In this document: piece after piece, positions 46,758 through 52,576 of the stretch | Layout of the letters: each line of letters starts with the position of its first letter | How positions within the stretch are numbered: the first letter of the stretch is position 1 | Assembly: GCA_938018185.1 (NCBI GenBank) | Contig: CALIIW010000128.1 | Location: forward strand, 1 to 64,000 | DNA: 64,000 nucleotides | Direction of reading: 5' to 3' | From: an uncultured Saprospiraceae bacterium | GTDB taxonomy: Bacteria > Bacteroidota > Bacteroidia > Chitinophagales > Saprospiraceae | The notes under the pieces: model-generated | What the model saw: only the letters and a program-made list of their open reading frames with translations | Databases searched by the model: none | Told to the model about the DNA's origin: nothing | Made by a program: the position numbers and the translations under genes

Positions 46758-47768
46758 CTATTCTTCAAAGCCTTGAACCCCATTTACAGTAGTATATTTA
46801 AAACTTAATTTTTGATCTGGATAAATGTATTTAAAAGCAGATTGTACCATCATGGTTGCCTCGTGAAATCCACACAATATTAATTTGAGCTTGCCAGGAT
46901 AGTCATTTATATCCCCTATAGCATATATTCCTTCGATATTAGTTCTATAATCCAAGGTATTTACTTCTATAGCATTTTTATTAATATTGAGCCCCCAATC
47001 CGCAATTGGGCCTAGCTTTGGCGACAAACCAAACAAAGGAACAAAATGGTCAGTAGCTTGATCAAACTCTCCTCGCTCTTTGTGCTTAATAACCACATCT
47101 GTTAGCTTTCCATTACCTTTCAAACCGATGGCTTGTGCATCTGTCAACAATTCAATTTTTCCAGCTTCCGCTAGATGCATCACCTTCTCTACGGAATCTA
47201 GAGCCCCACGAAATGATTTTCTTCTGTGAATGAGCATTACCTCTTCTGCCACATCTGACAAAAATATAGTCCAATCCAATGCAGAATCTCCTCCTCCTGC
47301 TACTACTACTCTTTTGTCCCTATAAAATTCAGGATCTTTGATTATATACTCTACTCCTTTGTCTTCAAATTGATTAAGATTTTCTATTGGTGGTTTTCTT
47401 GGCTCAAAGCAACCCAAGCCTCCTGCTATAGCAATGACTGGTGCCTTTATTTTTGAACCTCGACTTGTTGTTAAAATAAAATCCCCATCATCATCTTTTT
47501 CTATTTTTTCCGCTCTTTCACCTAAGGTAAAACCTGGTTTAAATGGAGCAATTTGTTCCATCAAACGGTCTACCAACTCCCCAGCCAATATACTTGGGTA
47601 TCCTGGAATATCATATATGGGTTTTTTCGGGTAGATTTCACTTAACTGACCTCCAGCCTGTGGCAAGGAATCCACTAAATGGCATTTTAATTTTAAAAGG
47701 CCAGCCTCAAACACAGTAAAAAGTCCGCATGGACCAGCTCCTATAATCAGTATATCAGTCTTTATCAT
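46758..47768 (-). CDS. Ferredoxin/flavodoxin-NADP+ reductase (thioredoxin-reductase-like)
   Basis: 336 residues. FAD site GAGPCGLFTVFEAGLLKLKC at the start, NADPH site VVVAGGGDSALDW, and C-terminal FAD block GIYAIGDINDYPGKLKLILC. There is no CxxC redox pair in the middle, so this is the YumC-type reductase and not a thioredoxin reductase. In this operon it plausibly feeds NADPH electrons via ferredoxin to the siroheme sulfite reductase. It starts 48 bp after the APS reductase stop and is the last gene before the terminator. Confidence 0.92.
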   Translation of the reverse strand: MIKTDILIIGAGPCGLFTVFEAGLLKLKCHLVDSLPQAGGQLSEIYPKKPIYDIPGYPSILAGELVDRLMEQIAPFKPGFTLGERAEKIEKDDDGDFILTTSRGSKIKAPVIAIAGGLGCFEPRKPPIENLNQFEDKGVEYIIKDPEFYRDKRVVVAGGGDSALDWTIFLSDVAEEVMLIHRRKSFRGALDSVEKVMHLAEAGKIELLTDAQAIGLKGNGKLTDVVIKHKERGEFDQATDHFVPLFGLSPKLGPIADWGLNINKNAIEVNTLDYRTNIEGIYAIGDINDYPGKLKLILCGFHEATMMVQSAFKYIYPDQKLSFKYTTVNGVQGFEE

Positions 47769-47816: not shown

Positions 47817-48560
47817 TTATTCATTTTCTTTCTTCTGCTTTCTATTAAAATAATTTGGATGAAGGCCACATTCATCTTTTTTGGAATCCTTCCATCTACC
47901 TGACCTTCCTTCTCCTTTGGCTGTACAATGCACACAACCGATACTTCCGTATCCTTCCGCCTCTAAAGGATGCCTCGGTAACTTGTAATAATCAAGATGA
48001 TATAAAAACTCCCCCTCATCAATGTCTAACAATGGATGAAACTTTAATATATCTCCTTGCTTTTCAAAAACACGCAAATGTGACCTAAAGTTTGTTTGAT
48101 AGGACATTAATCCGGATATCCAGATATCATGTCTGGCAACTATTGGCTCTAATGGTGCCAATTTATTTATTGTACAACACATTTTTGGATGATCTGTCCA
48201 CCAAGATTCTTCTCTTGTTAAAGCATTTTCCAACTTATTAGGCTGCACATCAATAACTTGCATATCAAATTCTCTAGCAACTTGTTTTTTATATTCCAAA
48301 GTCTCTTCAAAATGATAAGTTGTATTTATAAAATGGATCTTCTGACTTGGTTTGATTTGATGTAACAAGTGAAGTAAAAATATTGACTTGGTTCCAAAAG
48401 AGGAAGTATATAAAATCTGTTCCTCTTTATAAAATTTATACAAAGTTTCTAGTCTAGCCTTAAAGTTTAAAGGTTGGAATATTTGATTGAGTTCATCAAT
48501 ATTCATATTGACACCCTCCATTGTCTTTGGCCAATTTATTTTATTTATATTTTTTGTCAT
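47817..48560 (-). CDS. cysH: Adenylyl-sulfate (APS) reductase, CysH family
   Basis: About 247 residues from the ATG at 48560; an ATG at 48593 gives 11 more, and another at 48506 fewer. The PP-loop (YTSSFGTKSIFLLHLL), MCCTINKLAPLEP, GSIGCVHCTAKGEGRSGRW and the catalytic ECGLH are present. The CC plus CxxC set binds a 4Fe-4S cluster and marks APS rather than PAPS reductases. It reduces activated sulfate to sulfite, using thioredoxin or glutathione-like donors. It overlaps the siroheme gene by 20 bp or more and shares the polycysteine-leader operon. ATP sulfurylase and sulfate uptake genes are not in the window. Confidence 0.93.
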   Translation of the reverse strand: MTKNINKINWPKTMEGVNMNIDELNQIFQPLNFKARLETLYKFYKEEQILYTSSFGTKSIFLLHLLHQIKPSQKIHFINTTYHFEETLEYKKQVAREFDMQVIDVQPNKLENALTREESWWTDHPKMCCTINKLAPLEPIVARHDIWISGLMSYQTNFRSHLRVFEKQGDILKFHPLLDIDEGEFLYHLDYYKLPRHPLEAEGYGSIGCVHCTAKGEGRSGRWKDSKKDECGLHPNYFNRKQKKENE

Positions 48561-49173
48561 TGTTATTTGTCTTTTGAGTATTATTCTCTTCAACTAAAAT
48601 CGAAGTTAGTTCATTCAGTTTTGTTACTTTCTCTTCAAAATCACCTTTGAGTTGATCTCTGAAGTGCTTTAAATTCAATATTAATTCTTCCACATTTCGT
48701 GGTAATATTTCTTCGAGTATCTGTCTAAATCGTTTTGCAAAAGTAGGCGATTGACCATTGGTAGAAATCGCTACTTTCAAAGGCCCCCTAGTCACTATTG
48801 ATCCTAAATAAAAATCACATAAGGCCGGAGTATCTGCTACATTAATAAGCTTTCCTTTTGCTTTGGCTGCATCCCGGATATCTCTATTTAGTTCTTTTAT
48901 ATTTGTAGCTGCTATAATCAGATCATGCCCATCTATATCTATAGATTCAAATTCTTTCTTTATGATCTTTACTGAATAACTATTTGTCTTCAATAATTTT
49001 TCAATCTCAGGATTGACCCATGGAGCAACTAAAGTTATCCGCGCATCTGGGCTGCTCTTTAATATGAAAAATAACTTTTCATAACCAACTTCTCCAGCTC
49101 CAACAACAAGCATGTTTAACTCATGTAGCTTTAGAAAAATAGGGTACAGTGGGTTTGTATGTCCATTTATCAT
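48541..49173 (-). CDS. Precorrin-2 dehydrogenase / siroheme synthase N-domain (Met8-like)
   Basis: 210 residues: LYPIFLKLHELNMLVVGAGEVGYEK carries the NAD-binding motif, followed by DARITLVAPWVNPEIEKLL, DLIIAATNIKELNRDI, LINVADTPALCDFYLGSIV and LKVAISTNGQSPTFAKRFR. This is the oxidation/ferrochelation half of CysG, turning precorrin-2 into siroheme. With the methyltransferase just upstream (4-bp ATGA overlap) it forms a split CysG. It supplies siroheme for the sulfite reductase of the same operon. Confidence 0.93.
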   Translation of the reverse strand: MINGHTNPLYPIFLKLHELNMLVVGAGEVGYEKLFFILKSSPDARITLVAPWVNPEIEKLLKTNSYSVKIIKKEFESIDIDGHDLIIAATNIKELNRDIRDAAKAKGKLINVADTPALCDFYLGSIVTRGPLKVAISTNGQSPTFAKRFRQILEEILPRNVEELILNLKHFRDQLKGDFEEKVTKLNELTSILVEENNTQKTNNNDKKYK

Positions 49174-49934
49174 TTCTTGAAATTTATCTTTTCTACAGCC
49201 AAATTAAGCTCAGGATGTAAGGATACTACCTCCCCAATTACAATAATCGCTGGCGTCCCTATGCCTTCCTGTTTTACTTTATCGATAATGTTTTCTACTG
49301 TCCCCAATGCATATTTTTCATTTTCGAGGGATCCGTTCTGGATGATCATAACTGGCGTTGCAGCTTTGCCATTTTTTGTAAATTCCGCAACAATTAAAGG
49401 GAGTTTTTTCATCCCCATTAATATGACGGCAGTGGCTGTTGATTGGGCAGCTATTTTGATATCATTAGACAAGTCACCAGTTCTAGTGCAAGCAGTCAAT
49501 ACCCAAAAACTTTCATTCACGCCTCGTCTTGTCAAAGGCACTTTTTGCAACTCAGGCACTGCTATACAAGACGAAATTCCTGGAATGATCTCTGTTTCTA
49601 TATCGAATGAATCTGCATAATTGATTTCTTCATGTCCTCTACCAAAAACAAATGGATCTCCACCTTTCAATCTAACAACATGTCCATAGGAATATGCATA
49701 CTGAACCATCATAATATTGATTTCGTCCTGTGGATAGGAATGTTCGCCTGCCCTTTTGCCTACATAAATTTTTTGACAATCAACTTTTGTTAGATTCAAC
49801 ATCTCTTCATTGATCAAAGCATCATACAGGATCACATCCGCTTTCTGAATGGCTTTATAGGCTTTTACCGTCAAGAGATCTATGTCCCCTGGGCCAGCTC
49901 CTACAATTGAAATTTTTGATTTATTCTTTACCAT
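49170..49934 (-). CDS. cobA: Uroporphyrinogen-III C-methyltransferase (SUMT)
   Basis: 254 residues. ISIVGAGPGDIDLLTVKAYK, ADVILYDALINEEML, VVRLKGGDPFVFGRGHEE, EIIPGISSCIAVPEL and the YALGTVENI block are those of SUMT enzymes. It adds two methyl groups from SAM to uroporphyrinogen III, making precorrin-2. It starts 26 bp after the sulfite reductase stop. The following gene overlaps by 4 bp. Its place in the sulfur operon argues for siroheme, not cobalamin, as the end product. Confidence 0.94.
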   Translation of the reverse strand: MVKNKSKISIVGAGPGDIDLLTVKAYKAIQKADVILYDALINEEMLNLTKVDCQKIYVGKRAGEHSYPQDEINIMMVQYAYSYGHVVRLKGGDPFVFGRGHEEINYADSFDIETEIIPGISSCIAVPELQKVPLTRRGVNESFWVLTACTRTGDLSNDIKIAAQSTATAVILMGMKKLPLIVAEFTKNGKAATPVMIIQNGSLENEKYALGTVENIIDKVKQEGIGTPAIIVIGEVVSLHPELNLAVEKINFKK

Positions 49935-49960: not shown

Positions 49961-52102
49961 TTATGCTTTATAATGTGAATTAATGACTTCCTTATCCCCA
50001 CCATCTTTTAAATCTTTTTCTCTGTAAAGACTTACTAGTTTTACAAATACAGAAGCCTGATTATGATAGTTGGAAGCAAAAGCATGTTTCGGTTCATATT
50101 TGTTCAACTGTAATACCAAAGCATGAAAATCTTCTATTTGAGGGATTAACTTTGTTTCTACAAAGTGTTTTTGAAAGTCGTTTATGATATTTATATGTGT
50201 ATTGCATTTTACATCTGCGCTTAACAACAAAGCTTTTGCAGAAATTACAAATCCAGTGTACGCATGAAAAATTGCATCAGCCCACTTTTCATTTAGCAAG
50301 CATTCTGAAGAGAGCAGGATTTTATTTTTAGCATCATTTAATATGCTACCAACTACGTCCAAAGAAGCACCGGCGCATTCTCCTACCCCAATCTCTTGAA
50401 CATAATCTTCTTCTTGTCCCCAATCCTTAAATTCGTCTGCAGTTATATTTTCTACATTTCCTAGTTCTTTAAGCAAATCGTAGAAATAAATTTTTCCTTT
50501 GGATCTATAATAATCGTTAAAGTATTGTCCTTCTTCTGAATTAGATTCGTAATCATTTAGGATTAAGGATACCGCAATTAATATTCTCTTGGTCGGTAGT
50601 TTAATTACTTTTTCGGCAATATTTGCTTTCCCATCTGGATCAACCCCTCCACCCAAAACAATTTGCATGGCCGGTATTACCAAGGGTCTTTTTTTGATGC
50701 TAGATCCATGAAATCCAATGTTAGCAATCATATGTTGGCCGCAAGCATTCATACAGCCACTGATCTTCATTTTTATATTTCTTTCATCTAAAAATTGAGG
50801 ATACTCCTTTTTTATAAATGTCTCTAATTGTTCTGCCAATCCCATAGAATTCGTCACCCCAAGTGCGCAAGTATCTGTACCTGGGCAGGAAGTTACATCA
50901 GCTATTGTATCAAAGCCCGGCTCAGCAAATCCTATGGCGTCTAAGTCATTAAAAATATTTGAAAAGTATTCCTTGGGAATAAACTTCAACATCAAACCTT
51001 GGTTGATCGTCAAGCGGATATCATCTGCGGCATATTTTTTCACAATTGCTGCTAGGGCTCTTGCCCTTTTAGCATCTATGTCTCCTTTTAATACTCTTAT
51101 TTGTACCGCGTAAAACCCTTCTTGCTTTTGCTCATAAATATTCGTTTTTAACCAGAGATCATATTTCTTCGCATCTTTCGCTTCAACATTTGGAAAAACT
51201 TTAAAAGCTGGAATCTTATCTTGGTGTAAACTTCTATCTACAAAAAAAGATTTATTTTCTATAGCCGCTCTTTCTTCTTCTACTAACTTTAAAAATGCCT
51301 CTAAGCCCAAAGTCTTAACTAGAAATTTCATTCTTGCCTTGAACCTTTTTTCTCTTTCTCCATGTCTATCAAATACTCGAATTGCAGCTTCCATAAATGG
51401 AATGATCTGATCTTCTTCCAAAAATTCAAAGGCGGTAGGTGCTATAATTGATTGAGCCCCTAAACCTCCTCCAACAACAACTTTAAATCCTCTTATTAAT
51501 TTCCCTTCAACTTTTTTCACTCTTGGTATAAAACCAAAATCATGAAAAAAAGTAAAGGCAGTATCCTGTTCGGAAGAAGAAAAGGCAGGCTTAATTTTTC
51601 TACCCATATCTTGACAGATCGGGTTTCTTAAAAAATATTCATAAGTGGCCTGAACATAAGGACTGACATCAAAAGCTTCTTCTGGATCTATTCCTGCATG
51701 CGCGGATGCTGTAATGTTTCGAACGGTATTTCCACATGCTTCCCTAGCTGTAACGCCAGATTCAGATAGCTCCGCCCAGATAGCTGGAGAATCTTCTACT
51801 TTCACATAGTGCATTTGTATGTTCTGCCTGGTAGTAAGGTGCAAATTTCCATTTGTATATTTTTCGGATACATCTGCTAATTTGATCAATTGATCAGCAG
51901 TCAGTTTTCCAAAAGGAATCTTAGTTCTGAACATTTGCACCCCTTTTTGACGCTGGCCATAAACGCCCCTAGTCAATCGGTAATGCTTGAAACGTTCTTC
52001 GTCCATCTTTCCTATTTTGAAAAGATTTATGTTTTGTTGAAGCTCTATAATGTCTTTTGCAACCTCATTTGTCAACTTTGATAAATCCAGATTTTGACTC
52101 AT
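49961..52102 (-). CDS. Ferredoxin-type sulfite (nitrite) reductase with C-terminal HEPN domain
   Basis: 713 residues from the ATG at 52102 (MSQNLDLSKL), preceded by AAGGAAT. An upstream start at 52141 would lie inside the terminator hairpin and is rejected. It has two ferredoxin-like/nitrite-reductase halves, with siroheme-4Fe4S ligands CPGTDTC near 401-408 and CMNAC near 449. After residue ~570 comes a helical HEPN domain (SSECLLNEKWADAIFHAYTG, ISAKALLLSADV), making the protein about 150 residues longer than usual. With APS reductase and siroheme genes in the operon, sulfite is the likely substrate; nitrite cannot be excluded. Expression is probably gated by the two cysteine attenuators just upstream. 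Confidence 0.93.
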   Translation of the reverse strand: MSQNLDLSKLTNEVAKDIIELQQNINLFKIGKMDEERFKHYRLTRGVYGQRQKGVQMFRTKIPFGKLTADQLIKLADVSEKYTNGNLHLTTRQNIQMHYVKVEDSPAIWAELSESGVTAREACGNTVRNITASAHAGIDPEEAFDVSPYVQATYEYFLRNPICQDMGRKIKPAFSSSEQDTAFTFFHDFGFIPRVKKVEGKLIRGFKVVVGGGLGAQSIIAPTAFEFLEEDQIIPFMEAAIRVFDRHGEREKRFKARMKFLVKTLGLEAFLKLVEEERAAIENKSFFVDRSLHQDKIPAFKVFPNVEAKDAKKYDLWLKTNIYEQKQEGFYAVQIRVLKGDIDAKRARALAAIVKKYAADDIRLTINQGLMLKFIPKEYFSNIFNDLDAIGFAEPGFDTIADVTSCPGTDTCALGVTNSMGLAEQLETFIKKEYPQFLDERNIKMKISGCMNACGQHMIANIGFHGSSIKKRPLVIPAMQIVLGGGVDPDGKANIAEKVIKLPTKRILIAVSLILNDYESNSEEGQYFNDYYRSKGKIYFYDLLKELGNVENITADEFKDWGQEEDYVQEIGVGECAGASLDVVGSILNDAKNKILLSSECLLNEKWADAIFHAYTGFVISAKALLLSADVKCNTHINIINDFQKHFVETKLIPQIEDFHALVLQLNKYEPKHAFASNYHNQASVFVKLVSLYREKDLKDGGDKEVINSHYKA

Positions 52103-52125: not shown

Positions 52126-52160
52126 AAAAAATCCCTTCCAATATGATATTGGAAGGGATT
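52126..52160 (-). terminator. Attenuator terminator 2 (after the Cys6 leader)
   Basis: AATCCCTTCCAAT and ATTGGAAGGGATT form a 13-bp perfect stem with a small loop. On the minus strand TTTTTTATTT follows, then the reductase start codon at 52102. A terminator directly before the first structural gene only makes sense if it is conditional. Its 5' arm can instead pair with 52184-52197. Confidence 0.9.
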
Positions 52161-52183
52161 GCTTAAACTATTATTCATAGTAA

Positions 52184-52197
52184 AATCCTATTCCAAA
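52184..52197 (-). promoter_or_regulatory. Antiterminator segment 2, overlapping the Cys6 leader stop
   Basis: On the minus strand TTTGGAATAGGATT includes the last codons and TAG of leader 2. It mimics the 3' arm of terminator 2 (TTGGAAGGGATT). It can pair with the 5' arm as GGATT/AATCC and TTGGAA/TTCCAA, 11 bp with a small internal bulge. A ribosome at the stop codon would cover it; one stalled in the Cys run would not. Confidence 0.8.
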
Positions 52198-52295
52198 TCA
52201 CGATAGTGTGTGAAACAACAGCAGCAACAACATGTCATATAACAATTGTATTGATTACCGATGGAGAGGATTTTATTATTTTTCAATTTCTTCAT
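52188..52295 (-). CDS. Cysteine leader peptide 2 (six consecutive Cys)
   Basis: A 35-codon ORF starting MKKLKNNKIL and ending NCYMTCCCCCCFTHYRDLE. The six adjacent Cys codons (TGT TGT TGC TGC TGT TGT) lie at codons 22-27, with one more Cys at 18. It begins 14 nt after the T-run of terminator 1 and its stop lies 28 nt before the stem of terminator 2. This is the classic placement of an attenuation leader: translation speed through the Cys run reports Cys-tRNA charging. The peptide itself need not have a function. Too short and too odd to be a normal gene; the Cys run in this very operon is the evidence. Confidence 0.9.
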   Translation of the reverse strand: MKKLKNNKILSIGNQYNCYMTCCCCCCFTHYRDLE

Positions 52296-52308
52296 AAAAG
52301 TTTTATTC

Positions 52309-52348
52309 AAAAAAAAACCTTCCCAGAGTATACTTACTCTGGGAAGGT
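52309..52348 (-). terminator. Attenuator terminator 1 (after the Cys5 leader)
   Basis: A perfect 14-bp stem: ACCTTCCCAGAGTA against TACTCTGGGAAGGT, 4-nt loop, followed on the minus strand by eight T. It lies between the two leader ORFs. Its 5' arm (CCAGAG part) can pair with CTCTGG at 52372-52377 instead. Confidence 0.92.
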
Positions 52349-52371
52349 ATTTTACAATTGAGCTTGTAGAT

Positions 52372-52377
52372 CCAGAG
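52372..52377 (-). promoter_or_regulatory. Antiterminator segment 1, just after the Cys5 leader stop
   Basis: CTCTGG on the minus strand starts 6 nt past the leader 1 stop and repeats part of the 3' arm of terminator 1. It can pair 6 bp with CCAGAG of the 5' arm. A ribosome terminating at 52383 would mask it. Weaker than segment 2 but in the right place. Confidence 0.65.
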
Positions 52378-52382
52378 AAATC

Positions 52383-52454
52383 TTAATTGAATAAACAACA
52401 ACAGCAACAAGTTGCTGATTGAGGTACGTTCAATATTTGATTTGTCTTTTTCAT
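52383..52454 (-). CDS. Cysteine leader peptide 1 (five consecutive Cys)
   Basis: A 23-codon ORF starting MKKTNQILNV and ending PQSATCCCCCLFN. Five adjacent Cys codons (TGT TGC TGT TGT TGT) are four codons from the stop. The Cys-codon region can also fold on itself (CAGCAAC with GTTGCTG, 52402-52417), a possible pause hairpin. Terminator 1 begins 34 nt past the stop. A promoter-like pair lies just upstream. As first element of the sulfite/APS reductase leader it should sense Cys-tRNA charging. Confidence 0.9.
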   Translation of the reverse strand: MKKTNQILNVPQSATCCCCCLFN

Positions 52455-52475
52455 TAAATTAGTTCAATAGTCCTA

Positions 52476-52506
52476 CAATATTAAAGACTATTTTCACCTA
52501 AAGCAA
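52476..52506 (-). promoter_or_regulatory. Candidate promoter of the sulfur assimilation operon
   Basis: On the minus strand TAATATTG (52476-52483) differs from TAnnTTTG at one base, with a -33 TTG (52504-52506) 20 bp upstream. Start of transcription near 52471 would give a leader of about 370 nt before the reductase gene, with about 17 nt before leader 1. Confidence 0.45.
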
Positions 52507-52576
52507 TTTTGGAGCAAAAAAAATAAACATATTTATATTCTTTATTCGATTCATCGAGGCCGTCAATATTTTCGAC

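Follow-up and report, generated by a model that had tools for sequence, protein, structure and literature searches.

In the trp and his operons of Proteobacteria, the position of a ribosome on a leader peptide decides whether an antiterminator or a terminator forms. A comparable arrangement is found upstream of cysS in Rhodobacterales, where the uORFC-8-2 motif has a Cys leader followed by an intrinsic terminator and transcription attenuation has been predicted (PMC8632094). Polycysteine leader ORFs precede mycobacterial cys genes, where they are without terminators (PMC1262725) and are described as translation attenuation (PMC13236596, citing Canestrari 2020). Two attenuators in tandem, mgtM and mgtP, serve ATP and proline in the Salmonella mgtCBR leader, which has been called a singular example (PMC3641672). 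In Bacteroidota, there are hints of leader-peptide attenuation without a mechanism (PMC9723704, PMC7366714), and a literature search, in which one 2010 survey was not covered, found neither tandem same-signal amino acid attenuators nor Bacteroidota Cys attenuators.

The window considered here is the whole 64,000 nt stretch of DNA from an uncultured Saprospiraceae bacterium. Its minus strand carries an operon in the order sir, cobA, a cysG-N-like gene, cysH and a TrxB-like gene, and domain and protein analysis upheld the assignment of these genes in the first-pass annotation to sulfite reductase, siroheme synthesis and APS reductase. No match to the window Sir was detectable in two genomes of the same genus, G127 and G236, whose assemblies are 91% and 87% complete, and the operon thus appears to be patchy within the genus. 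The same annotation had placed two short ORFs with adjacent Cys codons in tandem before the operon, each followed by a strong intrinsic terminator and with an alternative partner for the terminator 5' arm near the leader stop. All of these features were located there (Table 1). Leader 2 also holds one Cys codon outside its six-codon run. Both terminators have stems of 14 pairs on the minus strand with U-rich tails, terminator 1 having a 4 nt loop and U8, and terminator 2 a 3 nt loop and then TTTTATTT. The sir ATG at 52102 is 28 nt past terminator 2. The A1 partner strand forms 6 bp and lies shortly past the leader 1 stop (p = 0.045 against shuffles), and A2 forms 11 bp with a bulge across the leader 2 stop (p = 0.02 against shuffles). 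When the unit 2 transcript is cut before the terminator 3' arm, it has a fold of -14.6. Scanning of 1600 nt revealed 4 terminator-like sites, with 0.6 expected, and 2 of the 4 overlap the leader 1 Cys run.

Table 1. Positions of leader elements and operon genes in the window, and of a third Cys-run unit in the same genome.
Feature	Position	Strand	Remarks
Probable promoter region	52473..52523	-	Precedes leader 1; the window has no clear full match
Leader ORF 1, MKKTNQILNVPQSATCCCCCLFN	52383..52454	-	Five adjacent Cys codons, 52395-52409
Predicted antiterminator strand A1	52371..52377	-	Pairs with terminator 1 5' arm, -10.1 kcal/mol
Terminator 1, intrinsic	52312..52353	-	Core stem 52317-52348; U tract
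Leader ORF 2, MKKLKNNKILSIGNQYNCYMTCCCCCCFTHYRDLE	52188..52295	-	Six adjacent Cys codons, 52215-52232
Predicted antiterminator strand A2	52183..52196	-	Pairs with terminator 2 5' arm, duplex -10.1 kcal/mol
Terminator 2, intrinsic	52130..52160	-	U-rich tail
sir, nitrite/sulfite reductase family hemoprotein	49961..52102	-	First gene of the operon; Pfam NIR_SIR, NIR_SIR_ferr
cobA-type uroporphyrinogen-III C-methyltransferase	49170..49934	-	
Precorrin-2 dehydrogenase, siroheme synthase N-terminal type	48541..49173	-	CysG-N/Met8-like
cysH, APS/PAPS reductase family	47817..48593	-	
Thioredoxin-reductase-like (TrxB-like) NAD(P)H oxidoreductase	46758..47768	-	
Region of the third Cys-run unit	L001:1470-2596 (G000:C51)		Leader MIKNLNLHNVCCCCCLSETLSRERRM with terminator

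Both leader regions fold better than dinucleotide shuffles (z of -6.8 and -3.7). A structured leader with terminators is also what a metabolite- or tRNA-binding riboswitch (T-box-like) would present, the Cys runs then being incidental. However, an Rfam search of the window leader gave only sub-threshold chance matches and no family at gathering score, and of the reading frames only that of the Cys codons is both open and conserved, leaving this explanation scarcely credible. The window leader very probably combines, on a single transcript, two serial transcription attenuators that respond to cysteine. Like the trp and his leaders, it would use ribosome position on the leader peptide to choose between antiterminator and terminator, but the amino acid is different, the device is doubled and a clear protecting 1:2 hairpin was not found. 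With the cysS leader it shares a short ORF with adjacent Cys codons, an intrinsic terminator and predicted Cys-tRNA-dependent attenuation. However, uORFC-8-2 is a single unit with two Cys codons that precedes an aminoacyl-tRNA synthetase gene in alpha-proteobacteria, and no relation by descent is indicated. The mycobacterial cys operons likewise respond to cysteine and have a leader ORF with consecutive Cys codons ahead of sulfur assimilation genes; those leaders are terminator-free, described as translational and partly leaderless, whereas the window has intrinsic terminators, antiterminator pairing and two units. The mgtCBR leader RNA also has two leader ORFs, with alternative structures for each, but it reads two different signals and both window units would read the same amino acid. 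On sequence grounds, the tandem Cys leader is best read as ribosome-mediated transcription attenuation doubled for one signal, its relatives being single, translational or different-signal.

A contig scan with the Sir protein yielded a first set of 80 loci, mainly from Saprospiraceae and Cytophagales. A short ORF with at least 3 adjacent Cys codons was present no more than 1.2 kb upstream of sir in 55 of the 80, and the two window leaders have counterparts in relatives with Cys runs at the same positions. In a hairpin search, most Saprospiraceae had a strict leader-terminator-leader-terminator order. Aureispira (L058), a relative that can be cultured, carries the tandem leader. Nearly all leaders in this first set (83/86) have their own terminator, at a median of 28 nt past the leader stop. 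In a further sample of 150 Saprospiraceae genomes, 53 had a close Sir and 50 loci were readable upstream. Two units, with a terminator for both leaders, were found in 25 of these 50 sir loci and a single leader-terminator unit in 12; a leader without a terminator was seen in 2, and the other 11 had no leader, though 2 of the 11 have cut-short upstream regions. The upstream regions scanned at sir loci of the Neolewinella/Lewinella and Roseivirga groups contained no Cys-run leader (L031, L039, L040, L047, L048, L057, L066; L068, L069, L071, L078, L081, L086).

The 600 nt upstream of the 50 sir genes contain 59 ORFs with at least 4 adjacent Cys codons, against none antisense and 0.02 per shuffle; other frames of the same repeats gave 1 Val/Ala and 9 Leu runs. 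After deduplication, 112 units remained (42 first, 41 second and 29 single). TGT and TGC are mixed in 98 of the 112 Cys runs, indicating that the amino acid rather than a DNA repeat is under selection. Outside the run, leader peptides have essentially zero pairwise similarity across loci and their length is not conserved. Terminator stems vary in sequence across loci and retain their base pairing. The comparison with relatives proposed in the first-pass annotation thus had the outcome expected there: across related sir loci, Cys runs are kept with terminators conserved beside them, and compensating changes preserve the alternative pairing of the terminator 5' arm.

Pairing between the stretch from run to terminator and the terminator 5' arm is, at class level, stronger than in shuffles (mean z of -1.72, 49% at p<=0.05). 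Controls were at chance: 7% reached p<=0.05 when this stretch was tested with the 3' arm, and 5% when the region before the Cys run was tested with the 5' arm. Each stretch also pairs better with its own 5' arm than with swapped arms of the same class from other loci, by 2.3-3.4 kcal/mol, hence strand A and the terminator 5' arm covary. In transcripts cut before the 3' arm, 9.9 antiterminator pairs are expected compared with 5.9 in shuffles, and in 80% of full-length transcripts the terminator is the minimum-energy fold. A significant A:B duplex is absent in about half of individual units, more often second ones, and in some units the best partner of the 5' arm is at another place; the alternative pairing thus appears to be a property of the class, not of every unit. 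At about -10 kcal/mol, A:B is far weaker than B:C (-19 to -25), and antitermination must therefore be kinetic. Strand A starts at a median of 15 nt past the last Cys codon (IQR 12-18), with a spread of 9.9 compared with 17 in the null. A ribosome that stalls on the last Cys codon would reach to about this point, and one at the leader stop would cover strand A in most units. A search across units for a protecting hairpin gave a weak excess (z of -0.67, 17% at p<=0.05); with no clear hairpin of this kind, the gates might stay open without translation.

Promoters in Bacteroidota carry the signature TTTG, a spacer and TAnnTTTG. A motif of the TTTG-N20-TAnnTTTG type was detected upstream of 19 of 69 first leaders (4.9 expected), with a spacer of 20 in 13 of the 19 matches. 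No enrichment was seen before second leaders (4/41, 4.1 expected) or before sir (3/70, 3.7 expected). The best match in the window, ATTG-N20-TAATATTG, is weak at 8/10. The gap between terminator 1 and leader 2 has a median of 38 nt in the deduplicated units and is as short as 5 nt. By comparison of the loci, both units would sit behind a single promoter on one transcript. These results also bear on whether the ORFs encode functional Cys-rich mini-proteins that bind metals or thiols, with terminators that just end small transcripts. Metal binding by Cys runs is conceivable and the ORFs are clearly kept. However, peptide length and every residue beyond the run are unconserved, whereas the distance from the run to strand A and to the terminator is kept, and no promoter signal lies between the units and sir, making mini-proteins very improbable.

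The preferred reading, two attenuators in series, draws on features that comparison of the loci shows, namely the ORFs, the terminators, A:B pairing with its covariation and its distance from the Cys run, and the confinement of the promoter signal to the region before unit 1. Each unit would be transcribed in the order leader ORF, strand A, hairpin B:C and then U, and ribosomes would translate both leader ORFs, with Cys-tRNA presumably the signal. With plentiful Cys-tRNA, the leading ribosome would reach the stop and cover A, so that B:C forms and transcription ends. With Cys-tRNA in short supply, the ribosome would stall in the Cys run and leave A free, A:B would pair once B is made and the polymerase would continue; even a stall at the last Cys codon would leave A free, as A begins about 15 nt downstream. 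Before arriving at sir, the polymerase would have to clear first gate 1 and next gate 2, so that readthrough probabilities would multiply, giving lower leak and about doubled sensitivity; this benefit of a second gate, lower leak with a steeper response, would follow as arithmetic from the architecture. Most likely, the tandem leader turns the pathway on only under cysteine shortage.

Cys leaders also precede other sulfur genes. A pattern search of 61 Saprospiraceae genomes gave 20 in-frame Cys-run candidates that were examined, 15 of which have a sulfur gene downstream. This gene is sir in 8 cases, the O-acetylhomoserine/O-acetylserine sulfhydrylase gene (MetY) in 3, and in one case each cysH (with a tandem pair), cysteine synthase (cysM), a SulP permease and a TrxB-like reductase. 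The TrxB-like gene, which has its own Cys leader in L151, is a relative of the copy in the window. Five candidates lacking both a terminator and a recognisable sulfur gene (L149, L154, L158, L161, L167) were discarded as chance, and a class-wide search for a Cys run followed by a CCYTYY motif was dropped as it returned mostly coding repeats. Cys leaders before cysH were found in further genomes as well. Tandem Cys leaders with terminators precede cysH in L163 (minus strand, G134:C56) and also in L270, with no close sir found in the genome, which indicates that the tandem arrangement is not restricted to sir.

At the three MetY loci (L155, L156, L164), Cys-run ORFs lie 79-131 nt upstream and an intrinsic terminator was not found, so these leaders perhaps exert translational control by the same signal. 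Some members of the family may thus act as in mycobacteria, where the polycysteine leaders have no terminators (PMC1262725) and are presented as translational (PMC13236596). A stall in the Cys run would then make the ribosome binding site of the following gene accessible, with any hairpins either incidental or blocking initiation. At sir, however, hairpins with a U tract are found in nearly all units, including both units of the window, where the mycobacterial pattern of an RBS-masking hairpin without a terminator is not found. Moreover, the alternative pairing is specific to the terminator 5' arm, and hairpin 1 is too distant from sir to mask its start. Translation attenuation is therefore an improbable explanation of the sir leaders.

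A third Cys-run unit with a terminator is present in the genome of the window (Table 1). Its terminator arm, GCCTTCTC, has an alternative partner, GAGAACGGC, near the leader stop. The genes behind it are a RimK/GSH-S-like ATP-grasp gene, the product of which is possibly a cysteine-using ligase, and then an arylamine N-acetyltransferase gene. Among 119 genomes of the class, a single clear relative of the ATP-grasp protein was found (G058, 31% identity).

In a tree of 94 Sir proteins, a Saprospiraceae clade has 46 members, of which 28 are tandem loci and 9 single ones, the other 9 being without a leader. Further Bacteroidia lineages have tandem units as well (L229, L230, L243, L246, L043, L076), and well-supported branches of the tree force at least 7 gains or losses of units. 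Outside Saprospiraceae, tandem two-Cys forms were observed in L236, L237 and L244. Leaders with two or split Cys codons and terminators (CCMCM, MCMCCM, CCTMCCTCC), some of them tandem, were seen in L237, L244, L236, L223 and L247; such split or short leaders in other Bacteroidia point to a gradation of run lengths that extends to short ones.

Terminators sort by position across loci, being classified as first or second in 68 of 83 cases (p of 1.6e-9). The two units are therefore old and distinct, in agreement with the earlier view that they do not stem from a recent duplication. Across the 41 paired loci, second leaders contain a higher total of Cys codons (8 against 6, p of 1e-5) and more codons past the Cys run (10 against 7, p of 1e-6), which leaves room for different thresholds. 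A refinement of the series reading, in which the two attenuators have different roles such as different thresholds, would fit these differences, the separate terminator classes and the Cys-run lengths of first and second leaders, which are uncorrelated in the 41 loci. However, both units would respond to one amino acid and they share their geometry, and the differences are modest and could reflect packing constraints; separate roles can be proposed only tentatively, and we consider them rather less likely than equivalent ones.

Overall, we lean towards a Cys-leader attenuation regulon across sulfur assimilation in Bacteroidota in which two attenuators for the same signal have been kept at the costly first operon, with several gains or losses, as a genuine two-gate device that leaks less and responds to Cys-tRNA more steeply, possibly with two thresholds. 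In Bacteroidota, there are few descriptions of leader peptides that place transcription under amino-acid control, and the units found here form a large, testable family. They pose a question of design, namely why half of the Saprospiraceae sir loci sampled retain two same-signal gates in series that also recur elsewhere, and they offer the same operon in natural forms with one gate and with two for comparison. The Cys-leader signature also points to genes linked to cysteine supply, including the ATP-grasp gene in the genome of the window.
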